From Pedobacter planticolens (GTDB lineage Bacteria > Bacteroidota > Bacteroidia > Sphingobacteriales > Sphingobacteriaceae), in assembly GCF_014172375.1 (NCBI RefSeq), contig NZ_WNXD01000001.1:558001-622000 (forward strand): a stretch of DNA of 64,000 nt. Reading direction: 5' to 3'. Positions 9,058-60,451 of this stretch are shown here, piece after piece. The notes under the pieces were generated by a model. That model did not search any database, was not told where the DNA came from, and was given only the letters and a program-made list of their open reading frames with translations. The first letter of the stretch is position 1. The number at the start of each line of letters is the position of its first letter. A program made the position numbers and the translations under genes.

Positions 9058-9097
9058 TATACAGGTCTAAATACTATGTACTAACTACTAAGAAAAG

Positions 9098-16407: not shown

Positions 16408-16408
16408 A

Positions 16409-16545: not shown

Positions 16546-16546
16546 T

Positions 16547-17230: not shown

Positions 17231-17282
17231 GCCTAATCAACTAACCAACCAAACATCCAAAAACCTAATAAACCAACCAACT

Positions 17283-19703
17283 ATGTTTAAACTCAACTTA
17301 AAAATCGCCCTGCGTAATTTATTTAAAAACAAAGTTTATGCAGCCATAAATATTGGTGGTTTAGCACTTGGATTAACAGCCTTTGTACTTTTATTGTTAT
17401 TCATTAATCATGAAACTAATTACGATAAATGGAACCCAGATTTAGATAAAGTTTATCAAATAAGAGAACATCATGATTCTTTCACACCAGACAATCAACA
17501 ACATTGGATGGAATCTGTCGAATCGAGAGTAGGTGCTTTAGTGACAAATAAAGTACCTCAATTTAAACAGGTAACCAAAGTAGGGATAAGCTGGGGGGAT
17601 GGATATTCTGTGAAATTAGCTAACGCAGATCCCATACTTATTAAAGATATTAGAGATGCCGACTCACTATTTTTCAAGGTTTTTCCTTACAAATTCGTTC
17701 AAGGAGATCAGTTAACAGCTATTAGTACGCCAAATACAATTGTGTTAAAAAGAAGTGTAGCCTTAAAGCTTTTTGGAACAGAGAAAGTCTTGGGCAAGCA
17801 GTTAAAACTACTCATGTGGCGAACAGATGAAGGAAGAATGGTTACCGTTACAGGTGTTGTAGAAGATCCGTCAACCCCGCAAAGCGTAAACTTTAATGCT
17901 ATTTTACATTCAGGAGAACGAGAACAAGATCCAGATCAGATAAGTAACACTAATCATTGTGAAGTATATGCTTTAGCAGCGCAAAAATTAGATACAACGG
18001 CAGTAAATAAAGTGTTGCAAAAAGTATATGTCGACTATAAAAAAAGAACAATTGTTGATCAAAAAGGAATTGATTTTAAAGACTATTATAAAAATGGTAA
18101 AACGCCAGGCTTAAAAATAGTTCCACTTCAAGAAGTATATTCAACCCCATCACTTACTCCAAGCTGGCTAGATAAGATTAAACCAATAATTGCGCTTTCC
18201 ATATTTCTGTTATTGGTATCAATTATCAACTTTGTGAATTTATCAACTGCGCAATCCGTACAAAGAGCAAAAGAAGTTGGAGTTAAGAAAGTTTTAGGCG
18301 CTTATAAAAAGCAATTGGTTATTCAGTTTTTGCTCGAATCTGCTATACAAACATTAGCATCTTTATTTATCTGCGTAATTTTAGTAGAGATTTTACTGCC
18401 CGCATTTAGCAACCAATTCGATGTACAATTAAGCTTTTGGCATAGTAAGCAATTACTATCCATGCTGTTCCAATTAGTTGGCTTATTTATATTCATCACA
18501 CTATTAGCAGGCTTTTATCCCGCGTGGATGTTATCAAAATATAACCCCGTCAAAGTATTGAAAGGAAATTACGAAAACGGATTTAAAGGCATCGCATTAA
18601 GAAACGGATTGGTAATCGTACAATTTATTATTGCCGTTACCTTTATTATTGGCATAGGAGTAATGCAGCAACAAACCAGTTATGTAGCCAATAAAGATTT
18701 AGGTTTTAATAGAGATAAGCTAATTAATATCTCGACAAACTATAATGATGGAGATCCATTTGGTGAAAGGGTAAAACGAGTTACAGGTGTAAAATATGTA
18801 GCTACAACCACACAAGTAATGGGTAACACATTTAATTTTTCGAATGAAATTACATTTAATAATCAAAAATACGACCTCAATACAGTAACCGTAACTATGG
18901 ATGCTTTGCCTGCATTGGGGGTACAAGTAGTAAAAGGTCGAATTTTTTCAAGAGCATACGGTCAAGACACCATCAATAGTGTGGTAATCAACCAATCCGC
19001 AGAAAGACTACTAGGAAAAAATATGGTTGGTAAACAATACAAAACCTTTAAGGGAACAAATGTTTTTCAGGTAGTTGGAGTAATTAAAGATTATAATAAC
19101 GAAGGGTTTGATAAAGCCGTTTTACCAACTATTTATAAGGTTACGCATTTGGGCGGATCATCAAATACCAATAACCTATTAATAAGATTTGAGAGCGAAA
19201 ATTATAAACCAGCAATGAAAGCAATAGAAGGGATATGGAAAGAATTATATCCAGCTTTTCCGATGAGATATATTGCAGTTGAAGATGCCTTTCAAAACGA
19301 ATTAAAAGCTACACGCAGGCAAATGCAAATTATAGTTTTATTTAGCGTAATCTCAGTTATCCTTTCCTTATTAGGTCTATTTGCCCTGTCAGCCTTTATA
19401 GCAAAACGAAAAACTAAGGAAATAGCAATTAGGAAAATACTAGGCGCATCAAATTTTCAAGTAATTAATATGTTAAATCGATCATTTTTGATACTAGTAA
19501 TTATCGCAAATTTAATTAGCTGGCCCATTGCTTTTATTTTAACTCGTAAATGGCTAGAAGGATTTGCCTACCGGATTGATATGCCAATTTGGCCTTTCTT
19601 AATGGCCACTTTATTGTCTGTTGTGATAGCTGTATTTACAGTAAGCTTACAAGCCAGAAAAGCTGCGGTAAATAATCCAGTTGATGCCTTGAAATACGAA
19701 TAA
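17283..19703 (+). CDS. FtsX/MacB-like ABC permease, paralogue 5
   Basis: An 806-residue permease, last of the array, with start MFKLNLKIALRNLFKNK, coupling stretches AKEVGVKKVLGA and TKEIAIRKILGA, and end NPVDALKYE. Its first periplasmic domain is the longest of the set and shows FDK replaced by YDKWNPDLDKVYQI. It ends 98 bp before a strong terminator, which closes the transcription unit that began at the sigma-54 promoter about 15 kb upstream, unless internal promoters exist. Confidence 0.9.
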   Translation: MFKLNLKIALRNLFKNKVYAAINIGGLALGLTAFVLLLLFINHETNYDKWNPDLDKVYQIREHHDSFTPDNQQHWMESVESRVGALVTNKVPQFKQVTKVGISWGDGYSVKLANADPILIKDIRDADSLFFKVFPYKFVQGDQLTAISTPNTIVLKRSVALKLFGTEKVLGKQLKLLMWRTDEGRMVTVTGVVEDPSTPQSVNFNAILHSGEREQDPDQISNTNHCEVYALAAQKLDTTAVNKVLQKVYVDYKKRTIVDQKGIDFKDYYKNGKTPGLKIVPLQEVYSTPSLTPSWLDKIKPIIALSIFLLLVSIINFVNLSTAQSVQRAKEVGVKKVLGAYKKQLVIQFLLESAIQTLASLFICVILVEILLPAFSNQFDVQLSFWHSKQLLSMLFQLVGLFIFITLLAGFYPAWMLSKYNPVKVLKGNYENGFKGIALRNGLVIVQFIIAVTFIIGIGVMQQQTSYVANKDLGFNRDKLINISTNYNDGDPFGERVKRVTGVKYVATTTQVMGNTFNFSNEITFNNQKYDLNTVTVTMDALPALGVQVVKGRIFSRAYGQDTINSVVINQSAERLLGKNMVGKQYKTFKGTNVFQVVGVIKDYNNEGFDKAVLPTIYKVTHLGGSSNTNNLLIRFESENYKPAMKAIEGIWKELYPAFPMRYIAVEDAFQNELKATRRQMQIIVLFSVISVILSLLGLFALSAFIAKRKTKEIAIRKILGASNFQVINMLNRSFLILVIIANLISWPIAFILTRKWLEGFAYRIDMPIWPFLMATLLSVVIAVFTVSLQARKAAVNNPVDALKYE

Positions 19704-46956: not shown

Positions 46957-46964
46957 TATATTTG
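46936..46964 (+). promoter_or_regulatory. Sigma-A promoter of tRNA-Leu(GAG)
   Basis: TTG at 46936, 18 nt, then TATATTTG at 46957-46964, same geometry as the promoter at 21041. The -33 box and spacer lie in the end of the MBL gene, and the start would fall near 46971. Confidence 0.75.
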
Positions 46965-46973
46965 CACTCCATT

Positions 46974-47019
46974 TATCCAGGTGGCGATCCCGGTAGTTAT
47001 CGGGATGGTGACTTTTAAT
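46974..47019 (+). repeat. tRNA-like leader segment with hairpin before tRNA-Leu(GAG)
   Basis: Bases 46974-46996 match the tRNA 5' end (47021-47043) at 18 of 23 positions (TATCCAGGTGGCGAT.. versus TACCCAGGTGGCGAA..), then ATCCCGGTAGTTATCGGGAT folds into a hairpin. It looks like a partial copy of the tRNA 5' part in the transcribed leader. Confidence 0.5.
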
Positions 47020-47021
47020 AT

Positions 47022-47105
47022 ACCCAGGTGGCGAAATTGGTAGACGCACCAGCTTGAGGGGCTGGCGCCCTTATGGGTGTGGGAGTTCGAATCTCCTCTT
47101 GGGTA
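47022..47105 (+). tRNA. tRNA-Leu (anticodon GAG)
   Basis: Acceptor ACCCAGG pairs with CTTGGGT (one G-U). The anticodon arm CCAGC-TTGAGGG-GCTGG gives GAG. It has a long variable arm and GAGTTCGAATCTC for the T arm. It is class II with no encoded CCA. The first base A is unusual but pairs with the T of the 3' strand. Confidence 0.92.
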
Positions 47106-47131
47106 CTAACCAGATTCATGGTTAATTTTTT

Positions 47132-47165
47132 AAAGGGTTGCTCATTAAAAAGCAACCCTTTCTTG
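47132..47165 (+). terminator. Terminator of tRNA-Leu(GAG)
   Basis: A perfect 11-bp stem AAAGGGTTGCT/AGCAACCCTTT with an 8-nt loop. Confidence 0.85.
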
Positions 47166-47411
47166 TTAACTTTCACTAGGTTATAATGGAAGGTTTTTTT
47201 AGACGAGGTAACAAACGTTCAATAATATCCTTTTGATTTAATCCTTGGTTTCTCATCTCCATTCATCTGTAATGGAGGTAATATTCCCTCGTATCCTTTT
47301 TGTCCACCCAGAGATCATTTTCTACCCACACCAGCATTTAAGACATCCCTTAATGGAAAGTATTCAACAGGCTATTCGCGTTTCCTACGTTTCTTTGTAT
47401 TCTATGGTGTC
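47166..47411. other. Gene-less stretch with possible coding remnant
   Basis: No intact gene. A frame from 47302 to 47415 reads VHPEIIFYPHQHLRHPLMES and on to a stop without a start codon and could be the tail of a lost gene. Nothing else is recognised. Confidence 0.3.
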
Positions 47412-48548
47412 TTAGTCTCTTGATGGAATTAGTGTAAATCGATTTTTCAATTTTAAAAACGGTTTCTCAAAAAGTTTGTATGACAATGTTGCAAGTGTTA
47501 CCGTTACGAAAAAAGCAAAAATAAACCCTAACCAATTTTTCCATTCCAACAGGTTTATCTGTAGGCTAAAGGTTGTTAATTCATCTTTAAAAATTTTAAA
47601 AACTAACCAATATATTGTGATGTGAAAAACATACATACCGTAAGATATACGCCCGAGGTAAACCAGTATTGAGGGCATATATTTTTCGGATGCTCCATAC
47701 AATGAGCAAAACATTAGTATTACCCCTATAAGTATCAATAGCCATCCGCCAATGGATTGTAGGATTGTTGCAAGATGTGGCGCATCTGCATTAATTTCAC
47801 AAACTATAGATGCAATTAACCAGCACATTATGCCTACTATAAATGAAAAAATTCGAGCAACTACATGCCATTTCGGTTGAGAACCTTTTAGATATACTGA
47901 TAGTAAAATCCCTGCAGCAAAAAATTGGAATTGCACAAAGCTGTTTGTCCATTGGCCACTAAAATTGGTTGTAGGCCGTGATGCATAGTAAACTATTGTC
48001 CCGTATGCAACAACAATTGCAAGTATTGAAAAAATCTTTAACCCTCTTTTTCCTGTAAAAAATATAATTACAGGAAGCAAAATATAAAGCTGCTCTTCAA
48101 CCGATACACTCCACAATGGATTGATACAATACGATTGCCACTTATGAAAGGTTATATACCAATTGCCAGAGAATAAAGTAAAAGCTAATTGGGCGCCTGG
48201 AGAAATTATTCTTCCAAAATAATTGGTGGTAGATGTTAGCAGCACCATTCCAAAAAAGAATGTAAAATACAGTGGCCAAATACGCAAAATACGTCGTATA
48301 TAAAACGACTTTACATTGATTTTTCCATATTGATCTTGTTCTTTTGTAAGTAATTCTGTAATTAAGAAGGCACTCAAAAAAAAGAATAACGGTACGCCAT
48401 AATTACCTATCAAACTTAAATGATATCCCCAATAATATTTTTCAGGGTCAATGGGAGCTAAGTCTAATCGATGAACAAAAAATACAAAAAGAAATGCACA
48501 CAAGCGTAGAACATCTAATTCGGGTTTGTAATAACGGGTTACTGTCAT
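47412..48548 (-). CDS. Acyltransferase family 3 membrane protein (OafA/YrhL-like)
   Basis: A 378-residue protein with about ten membrane segments. The family opening is PELDVLRLCAFLFVFFVHRL with the catalytic-type histidine; RRILRIWPLYF and NPLWSVSVEEQLYILLP are also typical. Such enzymes transfer acetyl or other acyl groups to sugars of LPS, exopolysaccharide or peptidoglycan. It is alone, flanked by gene-less DNA on both sides and by the tRNA-Leu gene, so it may be a later arrival. Confidence 0.9.
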   Translation of the reverse strand: MTVTRYYKPELDVLRLCAFLFVFFVHRLDLAPIDPEKYYWGYHLSLIGNYGVPLFFFLSAFLITELLTKEQDQYGKINVKSFYIRRILRIWPLYFTFFFGMVLLTSTTNYFGRIISPGAQLAFTLFSGNWYITFHKWQSYCINPLWSVSVEEQLYILLPVIIFFTGKRGLKIFSILAIVVAYGTIVYYASRPTTNFSGQWTNSFVQFQFFAAGILLSVYLKGSQPKWHVVARIFSFIVGIMCWLIASIVCEINADAPHLATILQSIGGWLLILIGVILMFCSLYGASEKYMPSILVYLGRISYGMYVFHITIYWLVFKIFKDELTTFSLQINLLEWKNWLGFIFAFFVTVTLATLSYKLFEKPFLKLKNRFTLIPSRD

Positions 48549-49042
48549 GTTTATAAATTCAGGTATAATAGGTTATCTAAAGCTTGGTGCCAACGTTTGA
48601 GGCTTTGTGTCGTTTTGGGTAATTAAATATACAAAAGTTCACTAAAGTACAGTGAGTTACAATAAAAGATCGGTAAAGAAAAGAGACGAGTTACAGGTGA
48701 GTTTCAAAAAAACCAATGTCTTCAGCAAATTGACCTCTTGATCTCTTTCCAGATAATCAACGGAATGCTTACTGTTACACCTTCATTTTTTTAGTCGATT
48801 AATAATGAAAAAGAATATTTAAAATCTTGGTCAACGAATTAATGCCAAAACTACTATTTTCCATATTTGCCAACTTTTTTGTTCTATTATAATCTGCTCA
48901 AGGTGATCTAATCGAAAATCACCTTGATTTTTGACACCTGATTAAATGAATCCTTTTCGTTCCAAATTCTCAATTATGGGCTCTATAAGCAATAAAAAGC
49001 GTTTCAAATGTTCAAAATATTCCTGCTAATCGGTACAACAGA
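48549..49042. other. Gene-less stretch with orphan terminator
   Basis: Short frames only; none supported. It includes the plus-strand terminator at 48898, and a second follows at 49043, yet no plus-strand gene precedes either. It may hold small RNAs or the decayed end of an inserted segment. Confidence 0.35.
48898..48931 (+). terminator. Orphan terminator 1
   Basis: A 10-bp stem TCAAGGTGAT/ATCACCTTGA with a 10-nt loop and TTTTT on the plus strand. Confidence 0.65.
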
Positions 49043-49068
49043 AACCTTCCTAATTTGGAAGGTTTTTT
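49043..49068 (+). terminator. Orphan terminator 2
   Basis: An 8-bp stem AACCTTCC/GGAAGGTT with a 6-nt loop and a T-run on the plus strand. Confidence 0.65.
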
Positions 49069-49078
49069 GTTTCTATCC

Positions 49079-49105
49079 TTGTAACATTTAAACGATATCG
49101 TTTTG
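49079..49105 (+). promoter_or_regulatory. Probable promoter with overlapping palindrome AAACGATATCGTTT
   Basis: The 14-bp perfect palindrome at 49090-49103 overlaps a -7-like TCGTTTTG (49098-49105), with TTG at 49079. The layout suggests a repressor site, possibly LacI-type, controlling the serine hydrolase gene at 49152. Spacing (16 nt) is a little short. Confidence 0.4.
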
Positions 49106-49151
49106 TCATTTAGCCAAAATGTTTAAGTTTATTAAACTAATCCATAAGTAA

Positions 49152-50300
49152 ATGAACAAGGCAATTTCTCTACGTTATTTTTTAACCTTTCTGTTCGTCA
49201 TTTCATTCGTTTTTAATGGCTTTGGTCAAGCAGAAAAGGCAGAAACCGAAATACGACAAATTATGAAGCAACTTGAGGTTGTAGGTGTAAGTGTAGCTGT
49301 TGTAAAAAAGGGTGAAATTATTTATACGCATTCTTTTGGTTTAAAAAATATCGAACAAAATACTCCACTTCAAGATAAAGATATTTTCAGAATAGCCTCT
49401 ATTTCTAAGTCTTTCTCGGCAACATCGATAATGCAATTGATAGAGGCTGGTAAACTTTCTTTAGATGATGATATGAGTAAGCTTGTTGGGTTTAAAATCA
49501 GAAATCCAAAGTTTCCAGAAACCGTAATCACACTTAAAATGGCCATGTCGCACCGCTCAAGCCTAAACGATAGCGAAGGTTATTTAAACCTTGATGCTAT
49601 TAACCCTGATAAAAATCCTAATTGGGCTAAATGTTATAGCGATTATGAACCAGGTACAGGCTATAAATATTGCAACTTAAACTATAATTTAATCGGAACA
49701 ATTATCGAAAAACAATCAGGAGAACGTTTCGATAATTATGTAAAACACCATATTTTAAAACCGCTAAACTTAAATGCAGGCTATTGTGTAGATTCATTGG
49801 ATAATAATCTATTTACTACACTTTATGAATACGATGGAAAAACAAAGCAGTTTACCGCTGCACCTACTGCTTATGCCCCACGTAGAGAAGAGATAAAAAA
49901 TTATGTAATGGGATACAGTACGCCAATTTTTTCTCCAACAGGTGGTATGAAAATTTCTGCAACCGATTTGGCTAAATATATGACTATGCATATGTATTAT
50001 GGGAATTACAAAGGCAAAAAAATCATTTCGAAAAAGAATTCAAAAATTATGCAGACCAAATTATCTGATGAAGAGGGGTATGGCTTGGCCATTCGTACTA
50101 TTGACGATTTAATCCCTGGTATAGTAATGAAAGGTCATACTGGCTCAGCATACGGTTTATATAGTGCCATGTTTTTTCAGCCAGAAGATAAATTTGGTTT
50201 TGTGGTGATAACAAATGGTTGCAACCCCACATATACCAATGGTATGAATAATGTTTTAAAACAAACAATAGCAGTGCTTTATAATAATTTTATCAAATAG
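49152..50300 (+). CDS. Secreted serine hydrolase, class C beta-lactamase/D-Ala-D-Ala peptidase-like
   Basis: A 382-residue protein with a signal peptide ending near FNGFGQ. The beta-lactamase superfamily motifs are present: S83-x-x-K86 in IASISKSFSAT, Y173-C-N175 in GYKYCNLNYNLIG, and HTGS as third motif near the C terminus. The fold includes peptidases, esterases and beta-lactamases; which one cannot be told. It lies downstream of a palindromic promoter region and convergent with the DUF4440-like gene. Confidence 0.88.
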   Translation: MNKAISLRYFLTFLFVISFVFNGFGQAEKAETEIRQIMKQLEVVGVSVAVVKKGEIIYTHSFGLKNIEQNTPLQDKDIFRIASISKSFSATSIMQLIEAGKLSLDDDMSKLVGFKIRNPKFPETVITLKMAMSHRSSLNDSEGYLNLDAINPDKNPNWAKCYSDYEPGTGYKYCNLNYNLIGTIIEKQSGERFDNYVKHHILKPLNLNAGYCVDSLDNNLFTTLYEYDGKTKQFTAAPTAYAPRREEIKNYVMGYSTPIFSPTGGMKISATDLAKYMTMHMYYGNYKGKKIISKKNSKIMQTKLSDEEGYGLAIRTIDDLIPGIVMKGHTGSAYGLYSAMFFQPEDKFGFVVITNGCNPTYTNGMNNVLKQTIAVLYNNFIK

Positions 50301-50315
50301 ATTAAATTAGATGCA

Positions 50316-50744
50316 TTATCCTGAATGGTCGTGCAGAATTTTCCAACCATTAGCTTCTCTAGTAAAGATTACCGTAAAGGTTCCTTTGCGCTCTTTCAAC
50401 TTATCGTTGGCCTTTAAGATAAATATGCCAGTCAGTATTGCGTTGTTCTTATCCAGCATGGTCACTTCATAGTTCGCATAGTTCAGCTCTTGTTTGGCTT
50501 TACCGTCCACAAAGTAATATTTTTCGTACATTTCACGGATGCTCTTTAATCCTGCTCTGCCTTCAGTCAACATTATCGTTGCCTTTGGAGAATACAGCGC
50601 CATATAGCTATCCAAATCGCCCTTATTCCAAGCTACTGTTGCCTCATTCATCAGCTTAATCAGTTGCGCACTTGTATCCTGCGCTTTGAGCCCAGTACTG
50701 TAAATCAGTACGCATCCTAAAAGAAAGAATTTTAGTGTTTTCAT
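50316..50744 (-). CDS. Secreted SnoaL/DUF4440-like protein
   Basis: A 142-residue protein from the ATG at 50744 with a clear signal peptide (MKTLKFFLLGCVLIYSTGLKAQ); an upstream frame to 50807 would add 21 residues and hide it. The mature part is an NTF2-like domain (LMNEATVAWNKGDLDSYMALYSP.. then GTFTVIFTREANGWKILHDHSG). Family members are binding proteins or small enzymes; no reaction can be named. Confidence 0.8.
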   Translation of the reverse strand: MKTLKFFLLGCVLIYSTGLKAQDTSAQLIKLMNEATVAWNKGDLDSYMALYSPKATIMLTEGRAGLKSIREMYEKYYFVDGKAKQELNYANYEVTMLDKNNAILTGIFILKANDKLKERKGTFTVIFTREANGWKILHDHSG

Positions 50745-50797
50745 AATTGCTGTGGTTATTTGGTTAAATCGTAGTTTAAAGAAACAGAAAAATTGAA

Positions 50798-50893
50798 TTA
50801 GCAACAACTACCTTTCAGTAATTTTACGCAAATCAGCACTCCAATTAAACTACCGATTAAGATTAAACCAAATAACATTATTACTAAGTACAT
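50798..50893 (-). CDS. Possible 31-residue membrane peptide ending in Cys-Cys
   Basis: A short frame MYLVIMLFGLILIGSLIGVL then ICVKLLKGSCC. It consists of one membrane segment and a basic, double-cysteine tail. No ribosome site is evident and no family is recognised. It fills most of the gap between two same-strand genes, which is the main support. Confidence 0.3.
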   Translation of the reverse strand: MYLVIMLFGLILIGSLIGVLICVKLLKGSCC

Positions 50894-50928
50894 CTTGCTT
50901 TGCAGAACATGCCGAACAATACTAATCT

Positions 50929-51249
50929 TTAATCAGTTCGTTTTATTTTTCCAATAACATAGTGGATAATCAAGGCAAGTATGGTCCAGTAAAATGCAAA
51001 TCCCAGAAGAAAAAATGGAGGAGGTGTATCTGGATCTTGGTGCAAAAATTTAATAAAGGGTAATAATGGGCCAATCAGAATTATTTTAATGGGAGATAAA
51101 ATGGTAGATATAGTCGCTTTCCAAACACCTTGTGATGCCACTCCTAATAAAGATTCAGTTGGTTGACCTAATAACAAGTTGGTGCCAAAAAGAAAGGCAA
51201 AAGCGAAAGCAAGAAAGATGAAAACAAATTTTATTCTTGAAATATTCAT
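50929..51249 (-). CDS. Small membrane protein of unknown function
   Basis: A 106-residue protein with two or three membrane segments (about 7-27, 45-68, 78-98) and a basic end (GKIKRTD). The proline-rich HQDPDTPPPFF lies between segments. It matches no family I know. Upstream are two identical 15-bp palindromes, so it may be repressor-controlled. Confidence 0.6.
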   Translation of the reverse strand: MNISRIKFVFIFLAFAFAFLFGTNLLLGQPTESLLGVASQGVWKATISTILSPIKIILIGPLLPFIKFLHQDPDTPPPFFLLGFAFYWTILALIIHYVIGKIKRTD

Positions 51250-51354
51250 ATGCTGATATAGTTAAATTTAATGTTGTTTAATTAATGTAAATACTGACAC
51301 TACTAATTGCAGTGCTAATGTTATTTTAATATAGATCCTTAGTTATTAAAAGTA

Positions 51355-51396
51355 CTTTGTATTTCAAAGTTAAGTAGATTGCTTTGTATTTCAAAG
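51355..51396. promoter_or_regulatory. Pair of identical palindromes CTTTGTATTTCAAAG
   Basis: Two copies at 51355-51369 and 51382-51396, 27 bp apart, each CTTTG-TATTT-CAAAG. The repeated identical sites suggest binding of a dimeric regulator. They lie 105-150 bp before the minus-strand gene at 50929 and within the upstream region of the DUF6266 gene, so either could be the target. Confidence 0.5.
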
Positions 51397-51497
51397 TGTT
51401 TTAGTTAAAAATATCTGCGCCCATGTTTGCTTCATCTTTGTCGTATAAAGTGTCTAAAAAGTATATCTCTTAAAACGGGCTTTAGACGGGGTTGGTT

Positions 51498-51542
51498 CGG
51501 GGTTAGTTCGGACTTGTGACAATTCAATCCGAACTAACCCCG
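51498..51542. repeat. Perfect 15-bp inverted repeat upstream of the DUF6266 gene
   Basis: CGGGGTTAGTTCGGA and TCCGAACTAACCCCG enclose a 15-nt loop. A third related arm (ACGGGGTTGGTTCGG) lies just before. There is no T-run. It would be a very stable RNA hairpin in the gene leader. Confidence 0.7.
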
Positions 51543-51632
51543 ACCTTAATGCGAATTAAATTTGAGGAGATAAATAGGTTGTTATTATTCTTTTAGTATC
51601 TTGCTACTAATCATCCCATAATCTCAAAAATT

Positions 51633-52271
51633 ATGGCAACATTCAACAATGGAATCAACGGTGGTTTCACCGGAAAAGTAGGTAGTGCAATAGGCTACCA
51701 GCTAAATGGCAAATGGGTAATGAAAAGCTTACCCAAACTAAGTCCAAAAAACAAAAAAGGAACGACCAGTCAAAAGGCTTGTAGGTCTGGTTTTACGAAG
51801 ATGCAGTACTTCCTTAGCCCTTTAATTGGCTTTGTTAGAGTCGGATTCAATTTAGAATCCAAACTGAGGCAAATGACCGCACACAATGTGGCCAAATCTT
51901 ACAACATGCGCAACGCACAAGATGCAAGCGGAGAAATAGATTACTCAAAAGTCTGTTTAACGTATGGCAACTTAATTGGGGTAGAAAATCCAAACGTAGC
52001 AAAAGATGATGTGGGGTTTCATTTCAGCTGGACTAATCATTTGGAAAACATGTGGCTTAGAGAGACCGACCAAGTAATGTTGGTAGCCTACAATGTAAAT
52101 GACAAACGGGTGTATTGCATAGTAAGTGGGGCTCGGAGACAGGTAGGTTTCGATACTTTGATTATCCCAACTATTGAAAAAGGAAATGAATTCCATACCT
52201 GGATTTCATTTATCTCAGATGATAGAGAAAGCATTGCGATGAGTAGTTATGCTGGGAGCTTTATTTTTTGA
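51633..52271 (+). CDS. DUF6266 family protein
   Basis: A 212-residue protein with the DUF6266 opening MATFNNGINGGFTGKVGSAI then GYQLNGKWVMKSLPKLS, and a beta-rich C-terminal half (FSWTNHL..DQVMLVAYN..). The family is common in Pedobacter-like genomes, often in many copies; its function is unknown. There is no signal peptide or catalytic motif. A hairpin-rich leader precedes it and a perfect terminator follows, so it is a single-gene unit. Confidence 0.8.
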   Translation: MATFNNGINGGFTGKVGSAIGYQLNGKWVMKSLPKLSPKNKKGTTSQKACRSGFTKMQYFLSPLIGFVRVGFNLESKLRQMTAHNVAKSYNMRNAQDASGEIDYSKVCLTYGNLIGVENPNVAKDDVGFHFSWTNHLENMWLRETDQVMLVAYNVNDKRVYCIVSGARRQVGFDTLIIPTIEKGNEFHTWISFISDDRESIAMSSYAGSFIF

Positions 52272-52293
52272 ATAAGCTGAAACTGATTTTACG

Positions 52294-52325
52294 ATAAAGC
52301 CTCTCATTTGAGAGGCTTTATTATT
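52294..52325 (+). terminator. Terminator of the DUF6266 gene
   Basis: A perfect 12-bp stem ATAAAGCCTCTC/GAGAGGCTTTAT with ATTT loop. It is symmetric enough to stop the opposing caspase operon as well. Confidence 0.85.
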
Positions 52326-52350
52326 TTAAGAGATTAGGTTAATTCTTCTC

Positions 52351-53136
52351 TTACAACATCAATTTATCTATTTGATCTTGACTTAATTTGCCATAATTAT
52401 CGAAAATGTGAGCAGTTACAGCTGCTGCAATTAACTTTTTGTTTAAGCCTAAATTTGTAGTAAGCACTTTAATTTCGTTTTTTAAATCAGCTTTATTAGC
52501 GATTATAGGGGTAAACTCAACAACTGAGCTTGATTTCGGTTTACCTGCTATTTGAGCTTGATAACACAGCATTACTTTCTGCGGAATTCCTTCAGTAAAT
52601 AGCTTTGTAGTAAAGACTAAACCTTTATCACTTTGGTCTATCTTTTTGGTAATTGTTTTACCACTAGTAACATATTGAATAAAAAAGAAGTTGTTCTCAT
52701 CTATTTTGTAAGTTGGAGAGATAGGTAATACTTCATCTAAAAGCAATAAAATGCGGTTATCAGTTTCTGTACTCTGAAAATAAGTTTTAGGGTCATACCC
52801 ATCAAACATTAAAGAGCGAGAACTTAAATGATAGGTGCTTGTAGATGGTACTAAGTTATTTTTTAGCACTGCAAGCAGCTCTCCGTTTGAACTAGGCTTT
52901 GTTTTTTGCGCATTTATTTCAAACCTGCCTTTTCCCGGACTGATACATGATAATTTTGCGGTTTGCTCTTTAAAAATGAGCGCATCTGTCGATTGTAAAA
53001 TATCTCCGACTTTTATAGGTTTTCCTGTTTTTTTTAGGGTAACAGATCCTTTAACAAAAGTTACATAATATTTTTCTCCATCTACAAATGAGAGACTAAT
53101 GCTGATCATCAGCAAAAAAATTAATTTCCTTACCAT
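52351..53136 (-). CDS. Secreted FecR-like protein, last gene of the caspase operon
   Basis: A 261-residue protein with a signal peptide (MVRKLIFLLMISISLSFVDG). The next 60 residues (YYVTFVKGSVTLKKTGKPIK..VGDILQSTDALIFKEQTAKLSC) match the pattern of FecR/SH3-like envelope domains. The remainder is beta-rich with no known motif. It begins 1 bp after the CHASE2-like gene, so it belongs to the same operon. FecR-like parts usually sense or relay envelope signals, but a direct role here is inference. Confidence 0.6.
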   Translation of the reverse strand: MVRKLIFLLMISISLSFVDGEKYYVTFVKGSVTLKKTGKPIKVGDILQSTDALIFKEQTAKLSCISPGKGRFEINAQKTKPSSNGELLAVLKNNLVPSTSTYHLSSRSLMFDGYDPKTYFQSTETDNRILLLLDEVLPISPTYKIDENNFFFIQYVTSGKTITKKIDQSDKGLVFTTKLFTEGIPQKVMLCYQAQIAGKPKSSSVVEFTPIIANKADLKNEIKVLTTNLGLNKKLIAAAVTAHIFDNYGKLSQDQIDKLML

Positions 53137-53137
53137 A

Positions 53138-54316
53138 TTATTTAAAGTTAAAATAAGTTTCTCTTAATTCTAATAACCATTTTTTAAATTGGGTTTTATT
53201 CCATTCTACTTGTCTCATTTGAATAATGAACCTTAACGTGTTAATGTATAGTGTAATTATTAATACTTGTATATGCTGATTAAAAAGGAGATAAGATACG
53301 ATTGAAAATATAGCTAAATAAGATGCACTTGCTAATAAAGGGCCAAACCAGCTTGGGTTATTTTCATCTTCATCTGGTGCTGGAAATAGCATTAGCCTAG
53401 AAAAAACGGTGTAACCAATAATTAAAAATAAAACCCACCACATACTCACTATATGCTGACCATCTTTTAACGTAAGATAAATGTTTAACAAAATTAATGT
53501 TCCTGGCGTTGAACCATAAATTGTATCATGCGCATCTGCATTAAAATCTCCTATTACAACAATTCGATCTTTTAAAAATTCATTAAAAATAACATCTTCG
53601 GGAAGTAATAATATTTCTGATAAAGTAACTACTGGATACTCTTTCTCCTCAAAAACCTCATGCGCTCTAATCTGATAATCGATAATCATAGAATTATGAC
53701 TTGCTTTACCATTATCCCAATGAATACCGTTTGAATAATTGAACTTTCTATGGTTTAGCTTTTCGTATAATAATACAGGGATAGTAGGTAAACTGTCGCT
53801 TTGAAATAGTTTAAACTTCAAAAAACCACTATTGGCCATTCTATAATCAGCAATTGCTTTTGGGACATGTAGATCTAATTTTTCTATATTTCCGTTTTTA
53901 TCAAAATGAGTTGGGAAAATAATATTATTCATTCCACTTACCGCATTTTGAAGTAAACTATCTTGGTCTGATTTTCCTTGTAAAAAAATATCACATATCG
54001 TAAATCTAATATCTTGCTGATGTTTTTTTATCACCTGAAATAGTTGTGCTAATTTTTCTCTATCAGTAATTACTTCATTTCCAAGTCCATCTTCTAAAGG
54101 TATCAATGCTTTATCATACGCTACATTGATAAAAATGAAATCTTTTTTTGGTGGGTCTTTATCGATGTGTAAAGCCAGTCGTTTAAAAATAGAAGACCAT
54201 TTGATTACTAGTTGTTCATCGCCATAAGTAAACCCTGTGCCCATCCAATATGCTGTAAAAGCTAAGAGTAAAAAGGCATGAAAGAAACTAATTAACCATT
54301 TAAATTTAGGACGCAT
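53138..54316 (-). CDS. CHASE2-domain-like membrane sensor protein
   Basis: A 392-residue protein from the ATG at 54316; the frame open to 54358 would overlap the caspase gene and has no better start. One N-terminal membrane segment (about 6-26) is followed by an extracytoplasmic CHASE2-like domain (FIFINVAYD.. to KDRIVVIGDFNADAHDTIYG with GTLILLNIYLTLKDG), then three membrane segments (about 295-375) and a short cytoplasmic tail. CHASE2 is a sensor domain normally attached to kinases, cyclases or caspases. Here no output domain is fused, so it may signal through the co-encoded proteases. Confidence 0.75.
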   Translation of the reverse strand: MRPKFKWLISFFHAFLLLAFTAYWMGTGFTYGDEQLVIKWSSIFKRLALHIDKDPPKKDFIFINVAYDKALIPLEDGLGNEVITDREKLAQLFQVIKKHQQDIRFTICDIFLQGKSDQDSLLQNAVSGMNNIIFPTHFDKNGNIEKLDLHVPKAIADYRMANSGFLKFKLFQSDSLPTIPVLLYEKLNHRKFNYSNGIHWDNGKASHNSMIIDYQIRAHEVFEEKEYPVVTLSEILLLPEDVIFNEFLKDRIVVIGDFNADAHDTIYGSTPGTLILLNIYLTLKDGQHIVSMWWVLFLIIGYTVFSRLMLFPAPDEDENNPSWFGPLLASASYLAIFSIVSYLLFNQHIQVLIITLYINTLRFIIQMRQVEWNKTQFKKWLLELRETYFNFK

Positions 54317-54323
54317 ATTGAAT

Positions 54324-56462
54324 TTACTTCTTACTAAAAATAAAATCACCGCCCACATGCCCTGCCAATTCTAGTGTTCCATAGCGTGGTTCTGTTTTGC
54401 TTTCTGTCATTACAGCCTCAATAATTTGATTAATGAACATTTTCTGGGCAGTTAGGTATTTCTCTTTGTTTTCGCTCAATGCTTTTACTAAGTACTTCAT
54501 AAATATACTTACATCTGGTACTTCGGTATCATTACCAGAGGTGATGGCAACACGAGTAATTTTGCTATCCATTTCTTTCATCGCCGCTGGCGCATCTGCA
54601 CCTAACCCACGAGATTTAAATACAGAACCAGAAAAACAGGCATCGGTAATGAGTAGGGTATGTCTTGCGGGTAATTCAGCAATCATGTCCAATACTTCTT
54701 TATTAGGCACCCAAGTATTTATGTCATTTCTCAAAGCATCGGTTAATAGCCAATAGCCTTTCTTTTCCTTGTCTACCCATATACCATGACCAGCATAAAA
54801 AATAACTAAGTTGTCTTCAGGTTGTAAAGCTTCCTTTAGCTCTAAAAATTTCTTTTTAAAATCTGTTCGTTGTGGATTAAATAGTGTGTAGATGTTTTCA
54901 TCAATGAAATTGTAATTGTTTTTAAGAATGAGTTTTAACTTGATTGCATCAGCAATAGGATTTTCTAAAGATGGAATAGTGGCATCATCATAATTTTGAC
55001 TAGCAATAAATACTGCATAGTTTTTGCCTTGTTTTTCTGTTACAGCAATTGGTGTTGCAGCTACTGTTGCAGAAGCTTTTTCTATTTCGAAAACTTGCTT
55101 AGTTGTATTTCCAGCAAGGTCAGTTGCTGCAATTTCAAATTTGTTTACCCCTTCGGCTAAGGGCACGGTTCCCCAAAAATCACCCACCTCTTTTACGTAA
55201 ACAGACAATCCGTTAATAGTAACAGATTTTAAACCAGAAGGATCTGGTGCCATTCCTTTAATCATTACATCTTTTCCTGCGGCAACAATTTTTAATCCAC
55301 GGGTATTGGTTGGTTCTAATATCTTTATTTCTGGTCCAGTTTTATCTGTTCTTCGAATAGTAACTTGATTGCCTTCCAGTTTAGCTAAACCCTCTAATGC
55401 GGGCTGGTAATCGGGATTAAAAATCAAGGCAGCTTCATAGTCTTTTTTGGCATTTGCAAAGTCATTTAGCCCAACATAAGCTTCAGCTCTTTTAGTATAG
55501 TGTCTAAATTTTCCAGGCCTTGGATATTTTGCCCAAAGTACTGTAAGCGGTTTCATTGCCTCCGTTAATAATGGTATTGCGATTTCATATTGCTTACGAC
55601 TCAAAGCTAATAGACTTTTATAGTATGATATGTTCTCTACACTTTGAATTCTACCAATATCTTCAATACTTTTTGCTAAATTTTCTGTATCACCTTTTCC
55701 ATAATAAGCGAGTGGTAATAATGTTTTTGCTAAACCTTTAGAGAGCATAAAATTTTCTCCACCAGAATTTAGCGTATTGGTAAGTAAACCAATCACTTCA
55801 TCATATTTTTTTTCAACCAGTAAAGCATAAATTTTTGTTTCAAAAATCCCTCTATCAAATTTTGCTTTTTCGCATGCTTCTTTTAAAATTTTCAAGCCTT
55901 CTACATCATCAGTAAAGTAGCACGATTGTAAGGTTTGAACGTATAATGCTTTTTCCGAATCTAAATTCATTGAGCCTTTGAAACCATTTTTTATCAATTT
56001 CATATATTCGGACTGGGCTACCCTAATATCTCCTCTAGAAAAATTAGTATTAGCTTTAAATGATCGAATACCTTCTATATATTCAGTGGAAGGACGATAA
56101 GAAAGTTTTACCATGGGCCCTATATTAGTATCATGTTCAATCAAAACTTGTGGGTAATTGATCAGGATGGTAATTAGATTGTCCAAAAGCTTATTAGCAC
56201 CTCTAATATCTCCTATTTCCATTTTTTTAAATGCGAGGTTATAAGCCCCATTGGTGATTGGATAAGTCTTTAGCGATTGATTATATAGTTTTTCAGCTTC
56301 AATTAAGTCGCCATTTTTTATTGCTTTATCTACTCTTTTTAATATTTCTTCTGCAGATCTATACAATTCTTTATCAGCCTTTTCCTGGGCTGCATCTTGT
56401 GCATAAAGAGATGAGAATGTTAATAAACACAATGTAAATAGGAGAAGTAGTTTTATTTTCAT
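54324..56462 (-). CDS. Secreted TPR/Ig-like/caspase-fold (C14) protease A
   Basis: A 712-residue protein; the ATG at 56462 gives a clean signal peptide (MKIKLLLLFTLCLLTFSSLYAQ), while 56468 is TTG. TPR-type helices fill about 25-370, an Ig-like domain about 373-465, and the caspase domain about 478-708. The dyad is intact: histidine 559 in FYAGHGIWVD and cysteine 609 in ITDACFSGS. The C-terminal half is nearly identical to that of the paralogue at 56523. Exported caspase-like enzymes cleave after a basic or acidic residue; specificity is unknown. Confidence 0.88.
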   Translation of the reverse strand: MKIKLLLLFTLCLLTFSSLYAQDAAQEKADKELYRSAEEILKRVDKAIKNGDLIEAEKLYNQSLKTYPITNGAYNLAFKKMEIGDIRGANKLLDNLITILINYPQVLIEHDTNIGPMVKLSYRPSTEYIEGIRSFKANTNFSRGDIRVAQSEYMKLIKNGFKGSMNLDSEKALYVQTLQSCYFTDDVEGLKILKEACEKAKFDRGIFETKIYALLVEKKYDEVIGLLTNTLNSGGENFMLSKGLAKTLLPLAYYGKGDTENLAKSIEDIGRIQSVENISYYKSLLALSRKQYEIAIPLLTEAMKPLTVLWAKYPRPGKFRHYTKRAEAYVGLNDFANAKKDYEAALIFNPDYQPALEGLAKLEGNQVTIRRTDKTGPEIKILEPTNTRGLKIVAAGKDVMIKGMAPDPSGLKSVTINGLSVYVKEVGDFWGTVPLAEGVNKFEIAATDLAGNTTKQVFEIEKASATVAATPIAVTEKQGKNYAVFIASQNYDDATIPSLENPIADAIKLKLILKNNYNFIDENIYTLFNPQRTDFKKKFLELKEALQPEDNLVIFYAGHGIWVDKEKKGYWLLTDALRNDINTWVPNKEVLDMIAELPARHTLLITDACFSGSVFKSRGLGADAPAAMKEMDSKITRVAITSGNDTEVPDVSIFMKYLVKALSENKEKYLTAQKMFINQIIEAVMTESKTEPRYGTLELAGHVGGDFIFSKK

Positions 56463-56522
56463 GTCCAAGTTTTTTTAATGTTGTAATGACTTCATAGATT
56501 GTTCGTTGCTTTTTCTTTATAC

Positions 56523-58703
56523 TTATTTCTTGCTAAATATAAAATCCCCACCAACATGCCCAGCCAGTTCTAATGTTCCATACCTTGGTTCTGTTTTGCT
56601 TTCTGTCATTACTGCCTCAATAATTTGGGTAATGAACATTTTCTGTGCGGTTAGGTATTTCTCTTTGTTTTCGCTCAACGCTTTTACTAGATACTTCATA
56701 AAAACACTTACATCAGGTACTTCGGTGTCGTTACCAGAGGTGATGGCAACACGAGTAATTTTGCTGTCCATTTCTTTCATCGCTGCTGGCGCATCTGCTC
56801 CTAAACCACGAGATTTAAATACAGAGCCAGAAAAACAGGCATCGGTAATTAATAAAGTGTGCCTAGCAGGAAGCTCTGCAATCATATCTAACACTTGTTT
56901 GTTGGGCACCCAAGTATTTACATCATTTCTCAAAGCATCGGTTAATAACCAATAGCCTTTCTTTTCTTTATCAACCCAAATACCATGACCGGCATAAAAA
57001 ATAACTAGGTTATCTTCTGGCTGTAAAACTTCCTTTAGCTCTAAAAACTTCTTTTTAAAATCATCACGTTGTGGATTAAACAAGTTATAGATATTATCTT
57101 CGGAGAAATTATAATTGTTTTTAAGAATGAGTTTTAACTTGATTGCATCTGCAATCGGGTTTTCTAAAGATGGTATTGTCGCATCATCATAATTTTGACT
57201 AGCAATAAATACCGCATAGTTTTTGCCTTGTTTTTCTGTTACGGCAATTGGTGTTGCAGCTACAGTTGCAGAAGCTTTTTCAATTTCGAAGATTTGTTTG
57301 GTTACATTTCCCGCTAGATCTGTTGCCGCAATCTCAAATTTATTTACTCCATCGGCTAAGGGCACGGTTCCCCAAAAATCACCCACCTCTTTTACGTAAA
57401 CAGACAATCCATTAATAGTAACAGATTTTAAACCAGAAGGATCTAGTGCCATCCCTTTAATCATTACATCTTTTCCTGCAGCAACAATTTTTAATCCACG
57501 AGTATTTGTTGGTTCTAATATTTTAATTTCTGGACCAGTCTTATCTGTTTTTCGAATAGTTACTTGATTACCCTCAAGTTTTGCTAATCCATTAATTGCT
57601 GGGCTGTAATCTGGAAAGTAAAGCAATGCAGTTTCATAACTCTGTTTAGCATTTACTAAGTCATTTAAACCTAAATAAGCCTCAGCTTTTTTGGTATAAG
57701 TTACTTGTTGAGCATATAAAGTTCCATATTTAAAAGACCCAGGTTTAAAGCTAAGATTTACACTGAAGCGCTCTAATGCTCCTGGATAATTTTTTTCTGC
57801 AAGGGCTATTAAACCACCTAAAAATGCAATATCTGGCGAATTTCTTGAATAGACTATGTTTTTAATTGCTGCTTCATAATATATTTTTGATTGCTCAATA
57901 TTTCCCAATCCTAATTGAGCTTCAGAATTTATGAGGTTAGACTTTACAGTCCAAATATGCTTATCAGACCTATCTGCTTCTTTCAATTGTTCTGAAAATT
58001 TAACAGCATTTGTATAATCGCCTTTGGCTAGTGCTAATTTTGCTGTAAGGTAAATTGGTGTAAGTTGGGTGCCTTGGCCCAACAAAAGTGTTTTATTCTT
58101 ATTGTTAACATAGAATTTAGTAAGCTCATTTATTACTTCTTGTGTAATAGTGTAATCTGAAACTTGCAAAGAGGTTTCTCCTAGCATAGCCATACTAACT
58201 GGATCTAATGTGCCATCCCTTTTTAATAGCAACATTTCTTCATGCGCAATTTTAATGTCTCCTTTATCAAAGTTGTTTTTAGCCTTCGCCAAGTGTAAAA
58301 ATTTAATATATTCGGCAGAAGGTTGATACGAAAGTTTTGCAATACCTCCTATATTAGTATAATTTTCTATCAAAATTTGTGGTCGACTTGCTAAACTATT
58401 AATTAAATTATCCCAAACCTTATTAGCGCCTTTAATGTCTCCTATTTCTATTTTTTTTAATGAAAGGGTACTAAATCCGATTGGGATAGGATATATTTTT
58501 AATGATTCGTTAAAAAATTTTTCAGCTTCAATTAAGTCGTCATTTCTTAGTGCTTTGATACCTTTATTTGATAATTCAAGTGCTTTTAAATACAATTCTT
58601 TATCAGCTTTTTTCTGGTCTTCATCTTGTGCATAAAGAGATAAGGATGTTAAAAAACACAATGCAATTAGCACTATTATTTTAAAAAAGGAAAATTTAAT
58701 CAT
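56523..58703 (-). CDS. Secreted TPR/Ig-like/caspase-fold (C14) protease B
   Basis: A 726-residue paralogue of protease A, starting at the ATG at 58703 (MIKFSFFKIIVLIALCFLTS, then LSLYAQ, signal peptide); the 58745 start would add 14 residues inside the previous gene. It keeps TPR helices, the Ig-like domain and the caspase domain with dyad histidine 573 and cysteine 623. The last ~335 residues differ from protease A at only about 15 positions, the TPR part at many. It starts 23 bp after the papain-like gene. Confidence 0.88.
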   Translation of the reverse strand: MIKFSFFKIIVLIALCFLTSLSLYAQDEDQKKADKELYLKALELSNKGIKALRNDDLIEAEKFFNESLKIYPIPIGFSTLSLKKIEIGDIKGANKVWDNLINSLASRPQILIENYTNIGGIAKLSYQPSAEYIKFLHLAKAKNNFDKGDIKIAHEEMLLLKRDGTLDPVSMAMLGETSLQVSDYTITQEVINELTKFYVNNKNKTLLLGQGTQLTPIYLTAKLALAKGDYTNAVKFSEQLKEADRSDKHIWTVKSNLINSEAQLGLGNIEQSKIYYEAAIKNIVYSRNSPDIAFLGGLIALAEKNYPGALERFSVNLSFKPGSFKYGTLYAQQVTYTKKAEAYLGLNDLVNAKQSYETALLYFPDYSPAINGLAKLEGNQVTIRKTDKTGPEIKILEPTNTRGLKIVAAGKDVMIKGMALDPSGLKSVTINGLSVYVKEVGDFWGTVPLADGVNKFEIAATDLAGNVTKQIFEIEKASATVAATPIAVTEKQGKNYAVFIASQNYDDATIPSLENPIADAIKLKLILKNNYNFSEDNIYNLFNPQRDDFKKKFLELKEVLQPEDNLVIFYAGHGIWVDKEKKGYWLLTDALRNDVNTWVPNKQVLDMIAELPARHTLLITDACFSGSVFKSRGLGADAPAAMKEMDSKITRVAITSGNDTEVPDVSVFMKYLVKALSENKEKYLTAQKMFITQIIEAVMTESKTEPRYGTLELAGHVGGDFIFSKK

Positions 58704-58725
58704 GTGATGAACGTTTTTATATTTG

Positions 58726-60153
58726 CTACTTATGCTCCAATTCAACCATCATAGGTACAATTGTTTTGCCTTTGCTAAATGCAGTAAAACTGATTTTATC
58801 TTTCGTGAAACTGATATCTGTTGGATTTACGATTTTCTCACCAATTACCTTAAAAATACGCTCGCTAAATGTGCCTTGTTGAGCGCCTATTTTTTTAATG
58901 ATATCGTTAATGTTGAGCTCATTCTTGCTATATAAAACACATAAAAAGTCCTTGCCAGCTTTATTGTCAAATTCTATAAAGTGATCTTCATCTGGTATAG
59001 CAACATCATTTTTCTTATCAGTTAAAGCAGCACTAATTCCATCTTCATAGGGGAATATTTTGGTAATTTCATTAGTTAAATCTGTACTAATGGCATACAC
59101 ATAAGCGGGTTCATTGTTAGAAATATAAATTCTAAATCTTGTGCCAGTAGTATAAACATCAGCAGTTTGATAAACAGTTAATGGTCCAGCAGCGGGTTTA
59201 GCTGGGACAACTTTCAGCCCTCTGGTAGAAGTATATAACGTTGATGGCATGTCTTTTCCATCAGCTAGGGTCAATCTAATTTGTCCACTTAAATCAGCTA
59301 CTGCTGGCTTAACTTCTGGTAAGTCTATAAATTCAAAAGCATACCATGTGTATTTTGCAAAATCGGCATATTTAATCCACATGTAACCTTCATTTCCCCA
59401 ATTTGGACCCCAACTGTTTTGAATTTCGAAAGCGCCACCTTCTTTAGCATCATCATAACCCACTACGCATAAAGCATGTCCCCCAATTTTAGGATCGGCA
59501 GGTTCAGTTGGTTTCCAAACTCCATATGCAGTTACAAATGATGTCGGACAAACCATACCAAATACCACAGGTTTTTTTTCTGAAATAGATTTTTTTACAG
59601 ATTGTATTTTAATTTCATCTGCTGCGTTCGTATCAAAAAGACGCATGTAATCTTTTATTTTACCTGTTTCTGCAGTTGTGTATTGTGCTAGTGTTAAAGT
59701 TGGTGTGCACGCAACAGGTAATTGACTGTAAGGAATTAAGCCCTTATTTTTCATCAATTCGAAAGCTGCAGCAACAGTAGTACCCTTCTTACAAGCCTGG
59801 TCTTCTGGACTGAGCATGCGAAATAGAAACGCTGGAGCAAATGCTTTTGCAGTAATTTCTTTTTTATCTATCCAGTTATTTTTAATAGCCTCAACAATGG
59901 TTCTTCCGCAATATGCCGAAGCCCAAGCTGTACAAGTTCCGTAAGCGCCTTGGCTGCCGGGAATTGGAGCATATTGTTTAAGCGATGCAGATGGGGGAGT
60001 AGATGTTAAACTACGGGTTAATTTTGCCTTTTTGTTAATGGCTTGATAGGCACCATCATCAAAAGTCATACCCATGCCAAATTTCGATTGTGCACTTGCA
60101 AAAAAAGAAAATAGACAAAATAATGCGATGCTAAAAAGTTGTTTCTTTCTCAT
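58726..60153 (-). CDS. Secreted papain-like (C1) cysteine peptidase with DUF4384-like tail
   Basis: A 475-residue protein with a signal peptide (MRKKQLFSIALFCLFSFFASAQ). The papain site is complete and correctly spaced: Q68 and C74 in SQGAYGTCTAWAS (as Q19/C25 in papain), H226 in GGHALCVVGYD and N246 in IQNSWGPNWG. A DUF4384-like beta domain (about 330-430: TGTRFRIYISNNEPAYVYAI..) and a further tail follow. It opens the five-gene minus-strand operon. It could activate or process the caspase-like proteins; this is inference. Confidence 0.9.
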   Translation of the reverse strand: MRKKQLFSIALFCLFSFFASAQSKFGMGMTFDDGAYQAINKKAKLTRSLTSTPPSASLKQYAPIPGSQGAYGTCTAWASAYCGRTIVEAIKNNWIDKKEITAKAFAPAFLFRMLSPEDQACKKGTTVAAAFELMKNKGLIPYSQLPVACTPTLTLAQYTTAETGKIKDYMRLFDTNAADEIKIQSVKKSISEKKPVVFGMVCPTSFVTAYGVWKPTEPADPKIGGHALCVVGYDDAKEGGAFEIQNSWGPNWGNEGYMWIKYADFAKYTWYAFEFIDLPEVKPAVADLSGQIRLTLADGKDMPSTLYTSTRGLKVVPAKPAAGPLTVYQTADVYTTGTRFRIYISNNEPAYVYAISTDLTNEITKIFPYEDGISAALTDKKNDVAIPDEDHFIEFDNKAGKDFLCVLYSKNELNINDIIKKIGAQQGTFSERIFKVIGEKIVNPTDISFTKDKISFTAFSKGKTIVPMMVELEHK

Positions 60154-60202
60154 ACATCTAATCTATTGAAAAATGTGCTGTTATGCATTGATTTTAAACA
60201 AA

Positions 60203-60220
60203 ATACCTAAAAATAGGTAT
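60203..60220. repeat. Small palindrome ATACCTA-AAAA-TAGGTAT
   Basis: A perfect 7-bp palindrome 50 bp before the papain-like gene. It could be an operator for the caspase operon or a leader hairpin. No other copy is seen in the window. Confidence 0.3.
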
Positions 60221-60309
60221 GCCAGTTTTTATTGATTTAGAAAGCAGTATAAAACTGCTACTTTCTTGATAGGTAGCTAAGTTTCTATACACGTTTCGTT
60301 AGTTAAATT

Positions 60310-60342
60310 TTGTATAAATTAATTATTACACAAACGTTTGTG
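60310..60342 (+). promoter_or_regulatory. Galactosidase operon promoter with LacI-type operator
   Basis: CACAAACGTTTGTG (60329-60342) is a perfect palindrome with the AACGTT core common in LacI-family sites. It overlaps the -7-like AACGTTTG (60333-60340; seven of eight matches to TAnnTTTG), with TTG at 60310. A repressor bound here would block the promoter of the GH35-GH27 operon. Confidence 0.5.
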
Positions 60343-60451
60343 CTAAGATTTATGGTTGTAAAAGAGTGCATTAGGCTATTTGTTAAGGTATTAATTCCTA
60401 ATTTGCTCATGCAATACTAAATCAACCAACAGTAAAACCAAGTATAAATTA

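Follow-up and report, generated by a model that had tools for sequence, protein, structure and literature searches.

A gene cassette of Pedobacter planticolens and its relatives suggests a CHASE2/FecR-like-gated switch of secreted caspases

Analyzing a 64,000-nucleotide stretch of the Pedobacter planticolens genome (assembly GCF_014172375.1, contig NZ_WNXD01000001.1, positions 558,001 to 622,000; the whole stretch is called the window here), we found that five consecutive genes form a conserved, patchily distributed cassette encoding a papain-family peptidase, two caspases, a CHASE2 protein without an output domain, and a FecR-like protein. We propose, with about even confidence, that this cassette is an extracytoplasmic protease switch in which the CHASE2/FecR-like pair gates secreted caspases. 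The first-pass annotation of this DNA had recognized the five genes but missed the main evolutionary signal: the variation in caspase copy number from 1 to 9, the contrast between homogenized catalytic halves and divergent tetratricopeptide repeat (TPR) halves, a second CHASE2-FecR-caspase locus elsewhere in this genome, and the patchiness of the cassette among relatives.

Gene content and predicted export

All five open reading frames (ORFs) lie on the minus strand at positions 52351 to 60153 and are tightly packed, with gaps of 22, 60, 7, and 1 bp when starts are read from the DNA, in agreement with the run of 1- to 60-bp gaps first described. The papain gene comes first (58726 to 60153, start at 60153) and encodes a 475-amino-acid (aa), predicted secreted peptidase with Pfam matches to Peptidase_C1 (1.4e-12; 48.6 bits, cut-off 20.7) and DUF4384 (1.7e-9). 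Caspase A (56523 to 58703, start at 58703) and caspase B (54324 to 56462, start at 56462) share one architecture, a signal peptide followed by TPR, an immunoglobulin (Ig)-like Glucodextran_B domain, and caspase domain C14, with Peptidase_C14 matches of 7e-12 and 4e-11, both above the cut-off. The CHASE2 gene (53138 to 54316) has its true ATG at 54316, the program-listed ORF start at 54358 lying upstream, and its product matches Pfam CHASE2 at 3.8e-8 (33.7 bits, cut-off 26.3). The last gene (52351 to 53136, start at 53136) encodes a 261-aa, predicted secreted FecR-like partner of CHASE2. Pfam thus bears out the gene content first read from the letters, namely papain, two TPR/Ig caspases, and an output-less CHASE2.

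The catalytic residues are intact in both protease types, as the first reading had held. In the papain, Cys (GTCTAW), His (GGHA), and Asn (NSWG) are invariant across the alignment, and the caspase His-Cys dyad is kept as YAGHG and DACFSG in A, B, and all other core-cassette caspases (DACFAG in two). Orthocaspases cleave after a basic P1 residue (Lys/Arg); the cassette caspases are probably proteolytic with the same preference, as predicted by analogy. Between the signal peptide and protease domain of the papain lies a KAKLTR segment (minus strand, 60013 to 60030; coordinates of such small features are approximate to within a few bases), which is invariant in all cassette papains and absent from other C1 proteins. 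We therefore rejected it as a general papain feature; as a speculation, it may be a candidate processing site, possibly for a caspase given the basic P1 residue. By sequence, no solved structure is related to the cassette caspases, and the closest solved chain to the papain is 3ois.

Both caspases, the papain, and the FecR-like protein carry predicted signal peptides, also present in orthologues (Lys/Arg, a hydrophobic run, and an A-Q end, judged by eye rather than by a predictor), and the fifth protein appears membrane-bound, as originally proposed. No lipobox Cys was seen by eye in the signal peptides, and Pfam detects no Por secretion tail in the caspases or papain, so the outer membrane, one of the two sites first suggested, finds no support. 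Bacteroidota export many enzymes, and predicted secretion would also suit proteases that are exported to attack neighbors or prey, in which case CHASE2/FecR would be a sensor unrelated to them. We regard this as very unlikely: besides the missing sorting tail and lipobox, the caspases are constant at the C-terminal end and variable at the N-terminal end, opposite to polymorphic toxins, immunity genes are not found, and the CHASE2-caspase linkage recurs in other loci (see below).

CHASE2 is an extracytoplasmic sensor domain. The cassette protein has four transmembrane (TM) helices, an N-terminal one plus those that follow, according to a Kyte-Doolittle scan and inspection, and its roughly 25 residues past the last TM helix contain no kinase or cyclase output domain by Pfam. 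Its C-terminal tail in that segment, LRETYFNFK (minus strand, 53138 to 53200), is strongly conserved among core cassettes, and inward signaling is a known property of FecR proteins elsewhere. Both points could favor inward signaling, in which the tail signals to a cytoplasmic partner encoded at another site and the proteases, instead of serving as output, act at an earlier step by cleaving the FecR-like/CHASE2 complex. However, no cassette contains a cytoplasmic regulator and the tail is not conserved in the divergent CHASE2 proteins of other caspase loci, which makes this reading improbable.

The FecR-like protein has no match in Pfam (PF04773 included), NCBIfam, or PADLOC. A pattern common to CHASE2-adjacent proteins of other loci, G-x(n)-K-x-G-D-x-L-x(3)-D, occurs in its N-terminal part. 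Since this pattern stands in place of a family match, "FecR-like" is a motif-level statement: the secreted FecR-like protein first reported is retained on its motif and signal peptide, and its membership in the family is not.

Conservation and distribution of the cassette

The order of papain, caspase(s), CHASE2, and FecR-like gene recurs across six genomes belonging to a single family, the window genome and five others, which is more than chance and upholds the gene-order check that the first-pass annotation had named. The full order occurs with one caspase in G046 (locus L008), two in the window genome and in Pedobacter ginsengisoli (G746, L012), three in G738 (L134), four in G029 (L007), and nine in G021 (L046 and L047), the papain orthologue standing first in L012, L007, L008, L047, and L134. 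In G021 (contig C96), the nine TPR-Ig-caspase genes form a tandem array of about 21 kb between papain and CHASE2. Caspase paralogues with a non-TPR N-terminal half follow directly after the papain in two loci (L134:14441-16162 and L012:6182-7906), the former with a weak 3-keto-disaccharide hydrolase-like match in that half. A seventh genome, G823 (L135), has one caspase, CHASE2, and the FecR-like gene but lacks the papain. We thus rejected the papain as an obligatory step, and the earlier idea that papain and caspase act in series finds no support.

The cassette is rare. With a CHASE2 query, 6 of 251 genomes of the family showed a relative; an alignment search found relatives in 13 of 400 with divergent forms counted in, and a contig scan with a single protein query recovered P. 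ginsengisoli only. These counts come from a subset of genomes, and first-look search filters lose relatives. In the two closest relatives examined (L114 and L115), reached via a neighboring beta-galactosidase with 88% identity, the genes flanking positions 46956 and 60452 are separated by only one small gene; therefore, the cassette sits in a 13.5-kb segment (46957 to 60451) that is missing there. This segment also carries acyltransferase, serine beta-lactamase-like hydrolase, SnoaL-like, and DUF6266 genes (46957 to 52271). Its G+C content is 0.338, compared with 0.337 in the remaining window, and therefore does not indicate a distant origin. The cassette was probably acquired horizontally.

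This distribution bears on whether the cassette serves housekeeping, that is, envelope quality control or maturation, with CHASE2/FecR-like sensing peptides that are misfolded or derived from nutrients, which the proteases would trim. All parts are predicted to be exported or membrane-bound, and TPR and Ig modules are suited to protein binding, as such a role would have it. We nevertheless consider it improbable, at the same level as inward signaling, given the rare and patchy occurrence (6/251 and 13/400), the absence from close relatives, and the strong variation in copy number.

Mosaic caspase paralogues

Caspases A and B are 42% identical in the TPR half (synonymous divergence [dS] 1.33) and 96% identical in the Ig and caspase domains (dS 0.38 and 0.75). 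In 30-codon blocks, their nucleotide identity is about 67 to 79% over aa 1 to 150, about 33 to 42% over aa 150 to 318, about 69% up to aa 378, and 78 to 97% thereafter. In window coordinates, with approximate limits, the divergent TPR core of caspase A (10 to 29% aa identity to B) spans 57750 to 58256 on the minus strand, and the homogenized Ig-caspase halves of A and B span 56523 to 57570 and 54324 to 55380. Copies 3 and 4 of G029 show a similar step at about aa 320, with 62 to 88% identity before it and 92 to 98% after it in nearly all blocks.

Phylogenetic trees of the two halves disagree. In the TPR-half tree, caspase A groups with G029 copy 1 and G021 copy 9 and caspase B with P. ginsengisoli copy 2; a clade of A and B is rejected (approximately unbiased [AU] test, p = 0.0004), as is a clade of G029 copies 3 and 4 (AU p = 0.0006). 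In the Ig-caspase tree, both pairs are sisters (support 97/96 for A and B and 100/97 for G029 copies 3 and 4), with alternatives rejected at p = 0.0315, 0.0119, and 5e-9. The tested clades were named after the trees had been seen, so all these p values are somewhat optimistic. Because their N-terminal halves are not sisters, recent duplication alone is rejected as the source of likeness for these two pairs (AU p = 0.0004 and 0.0006). A simple reading of these sequences would be that the catalytic half has spread by recombination or gene conversion among paralogues with older, different TPR halves. Among the nine G021 copies, caspase identity is mostly about 80% (about 44% for two copies) and TPR identity mostly about 25 to 40%; synonymous sites are saturated, so we claim only constraint there, strong constraint on the caspase being a sufficient explanation.

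A constant effector half joined to a divergent, recognition-type half, together with patchy presence, an extra segment missing in close relatives, and copy numbers of 1 to 9, is also what an anti-phage or anti-competitor suicide system might look like. The proteins would be extracytoplasmic immune receptors whose TPR halves recognize invader-caused changes and whose common caspase kills via the envelope, and caspases do belong to described conflict systems (PMC7159879, PMC8195603). On the other hand, no defense-island genes were recognized around the cassette, diversifying selection was not detected, and a periplasmic site is unusual among described caspase defenses. PADLOC recognized no system components and gave only weak matches to generic caspase models (17 to 20 bits), and we rejected assignment to a known defense system. 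Overall, a suicide system appears unlikely, though it is the most credible of the rivals. Slightly less probable still is periplasmic "receptor array" immunity or cell death, in which one sensor pair would serve up to nine caspases, gene conversion would maintain the killing module, and the TPRs would diverge toward different invaders or damage signals.

CHASE2-caspase linkage beyond the cassette

The gated-caspase proposal draws on loci outside the cassette as well. The CHASE2 proteins of L010, L011, and L051 have only 19 to 28% identity to that of the window, and divergent CHASE2 genes adjoin secreted caspases, often with a small secreted protein, in these loci and, counting CHASE2 proteins detected by profile, in L118, L119, L137, and L139. 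The window's own genome has a second output-less CHASE2 gene by Pfam search. Its locus (L087:9484-16509, equivalent to G000:C1:917483-924509) contains a secreted caspase-DUF4384 fusion, two small paralogous secreted proteins, CHASE2, and then a FecR-like protein whose end resembles TPR. L152 to L155 are related to this locus; caspase, CHASE2, and FecR-TPR genes are consecutive in L153 and L154, and caspases are nearby in L155. Type-2 loci thus combine a caspase, mostly with DUF4384, an output-less CHASE2, and a FecR-like partner with common G/KxGD/D residues.

Across 23 loci recovered through CHASE2 only, with caspases not used in the search and the surroundings then read, a caspase lies within about four genes of the output-less CHASE2 in 18, often with a FecR-like partner too; one of the others, L152, is interrupted by a contig end. 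A PF00656 search counted 1 to 16 caspases per genome in 16 genomes, which are lower bounds, as both caspases of the window and eight of the nine G021 copies escaped the search. With these numbers and about 4,000 genes per genome, we estimate chance proximity at a few percent at most. Since the CHASE2/FecR-like pair recurs with secreted caspases in divergent loci, joint action is plausible.

Linkage was also examined from the papain side. Of about 33 distant C1 loci in the class, 9 have a caspase next door or only a few genes away; caspase-linked papains mostly have signal peptides, and a common 520-aa C1 subfamily has a different N-terminus and no caspase nearby. In L056, L059, and L072, from unrelated Bacteroidia families, a secreted papain, in some cases with a weak DUF4384 or none, stands beside WD40-type or other caspases, apparently reflecting a general papain-caspase partnership. 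DUF4384 is on the papain in the cassette and on the caspase at the second locus type, thus linking the two proteases by domain fusion.

Proposed mechanism

Because CHASE2 has no inward output domain and export is predicted for all the proteases, control of secreted caspases by the CHASE2/FecR-like pair is the most economical explanation. The localization, contacts, sensing, activation, substrates, and biological role that we infer are as follows. The four-TM CHASE2 protein would be an inner-membrane protein whose sensor domain faces the periplasm, paired with the secreted FecR-like protein, and the pair would detect an envelope event such as a ligand, an invader, or damage. Lacking a cytoplasmic output, it would relay this signal to caspases secreted into the periplasm. 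Their nearly uniform Ig-caspase half may dock to a common activator and perform one type of cleavage, probably after Lys/Arg, while the divergent TPR halves would let each paralogue have a separate partner, trigger, or substrate. At most an accessory, because it is missing in the G823 cassette and in the divergent CHASE2-caspase loci, the papain-DUF4384 protein may modulate or amplify the response. The likely outcome would be controlled envelope proteolysis, serving damage control, counter-invader action, or self-killing, and the cassette possibly has a role in defense or stress-triggered self-proteolysis. The earlier suggestion that CHASE2/FecR sensing triggers the proteases thus survives as plausible joint action, with sensing and activation themselves conjectural.

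Several observations weigh against this proposal. Four of the 23 CHASE2 loci (L136, L138, L048, and L050) have no nearby caspase. No defense neighborhood is evident around the cassette, and the CHASE2 protein has no match in the plasmid and phage collections searched with it. Where measurable, the ratio of nonsynonymous to synonymous divergence in the TPR halves is below 1 (about 0.14 to 0.4), so diversifying selection is not evident. The assignments of signal peptides and topology come from visual inspection or hydropathy, and the FecR-like call is under the Pfam threshold. AlphaFold models, built with two and four sequences as input, are poor (mean predicted local distance difference test score of 58 for the FecR-like protein and 62 for caspase B), and every Foldseek match of these models in the PDB had an E value above 0.001 and was uninformative. 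The proposal as a whole comes from computational analysis of the sequences.

Relation to known systems

Individual elements of the cassette have counterparts elsewhere. The Trichodesmium caspase-CHASE2 fusion (PMC3501461) also ties a caspase domain functionally to CHASE2, but it is one protein with a caspase predicted to be cytoplasmic, whereas the cassette has separate genes and several copies of caspases predicted to be exported. Described EACC1-caspase pairs (PMC7159879) and EACC2-caspase(-CHASE2) conflict systems (PMC8195603) likewise combine a membrane sensor with a caspase and variable partner domains. In contrast, no EACC domain or EAD was found in the cassette, its variable part is the N-terminal TPR, and its caspases are predicted to lie outside the cytoplasm. 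Membership in the EACC1-caspase group was rejected, as the caspases score 61 bits against a model cut-off of 140 and no EACC1 gene is present. The fusions and EACC systems thus have a cytoplasmic caspase or use other partners, unlike the cassette.

CHASE2-FecR gene pairs occur with kinases, as in the operon of a CHASE2 histidine kinase and LysM-FecR BiofilmReg (PMC5192318), and with adenylate cyclases and TPR proteins, as in a Campylobacterota cluster (PMC9239204). Both place CHASE2 beside a secreted FecR-domain gene, the latter with TPR as well, but their output is a kinase or cyclase, whereas the cassette CHASE2 has no output and linked caspases. In Sinorhizobium, the signal to which CHASE2 cyclases respond is a protein and acts via an outer membrane barrel (PMC13001267). 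Orthocaspases with DUF4384 (PMC7475262) resemble the second locus of the window genome in their DUF4384-caspase link and differ from the cassette, which carries DUF4384 on the papain. The latter shares the C1 catalytic domain with papain-family peptidases (3ois) and differs by DUF4384 and caspase linkage. The first-pass annotation knew of no described system with this composition, and we likewise saw no set made up of papain, secreted caspase, CHASE2, and FecR-like protein described in open-access full text, a scope outside of which lie most subscription journals and preprints. These comparisons suggest that the cassette is a variant of caspase-based signaling systems, previously undescribed as far as we found.

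Two further features of the window were recorded. A terminator-like symmetric hairpin, AAAGCCTCTC-AAAT-GAGAGGCTTT, read by eye, lies 3' of the last cassette gene at about 52296 to 52319. Positions 6679 to 19703 hold about five MacB/FtsX-type ABC permease genes in tandem, each encoding roughly 790 to 806 aa (three Pfam-checked), with one 227-aa ORF between them.

Significance

Discussion of bacterial caspases usually casts them as effectors that act in the cytoplasm, downstream of NTPases, and the ligands of CHASE2 are, to our knowledge, mostly unknown. A conserved cassette whose caspases are apparently extracytoplasmic and accompany a CHASE2 receptor that lacks an inward output would represent a different wiring; CHASE2 would, if this is true, gain a proteolytic output. 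The homogenized catalytic halves and divergent TPR halves offer a ready genetic system for questions of TPR recognition, and since the hosts include a named cultured species, Pedobacter ginsengisoli, deletion tests should be feasible. The cassette is carried by some soil-type bacteria, and its caspase genes, duplicated to as many as nine with nearly uniform catalytic halves and divergent N-terminal halves, suggest that they possess an undescribed protease switch outside the cytoplasm.

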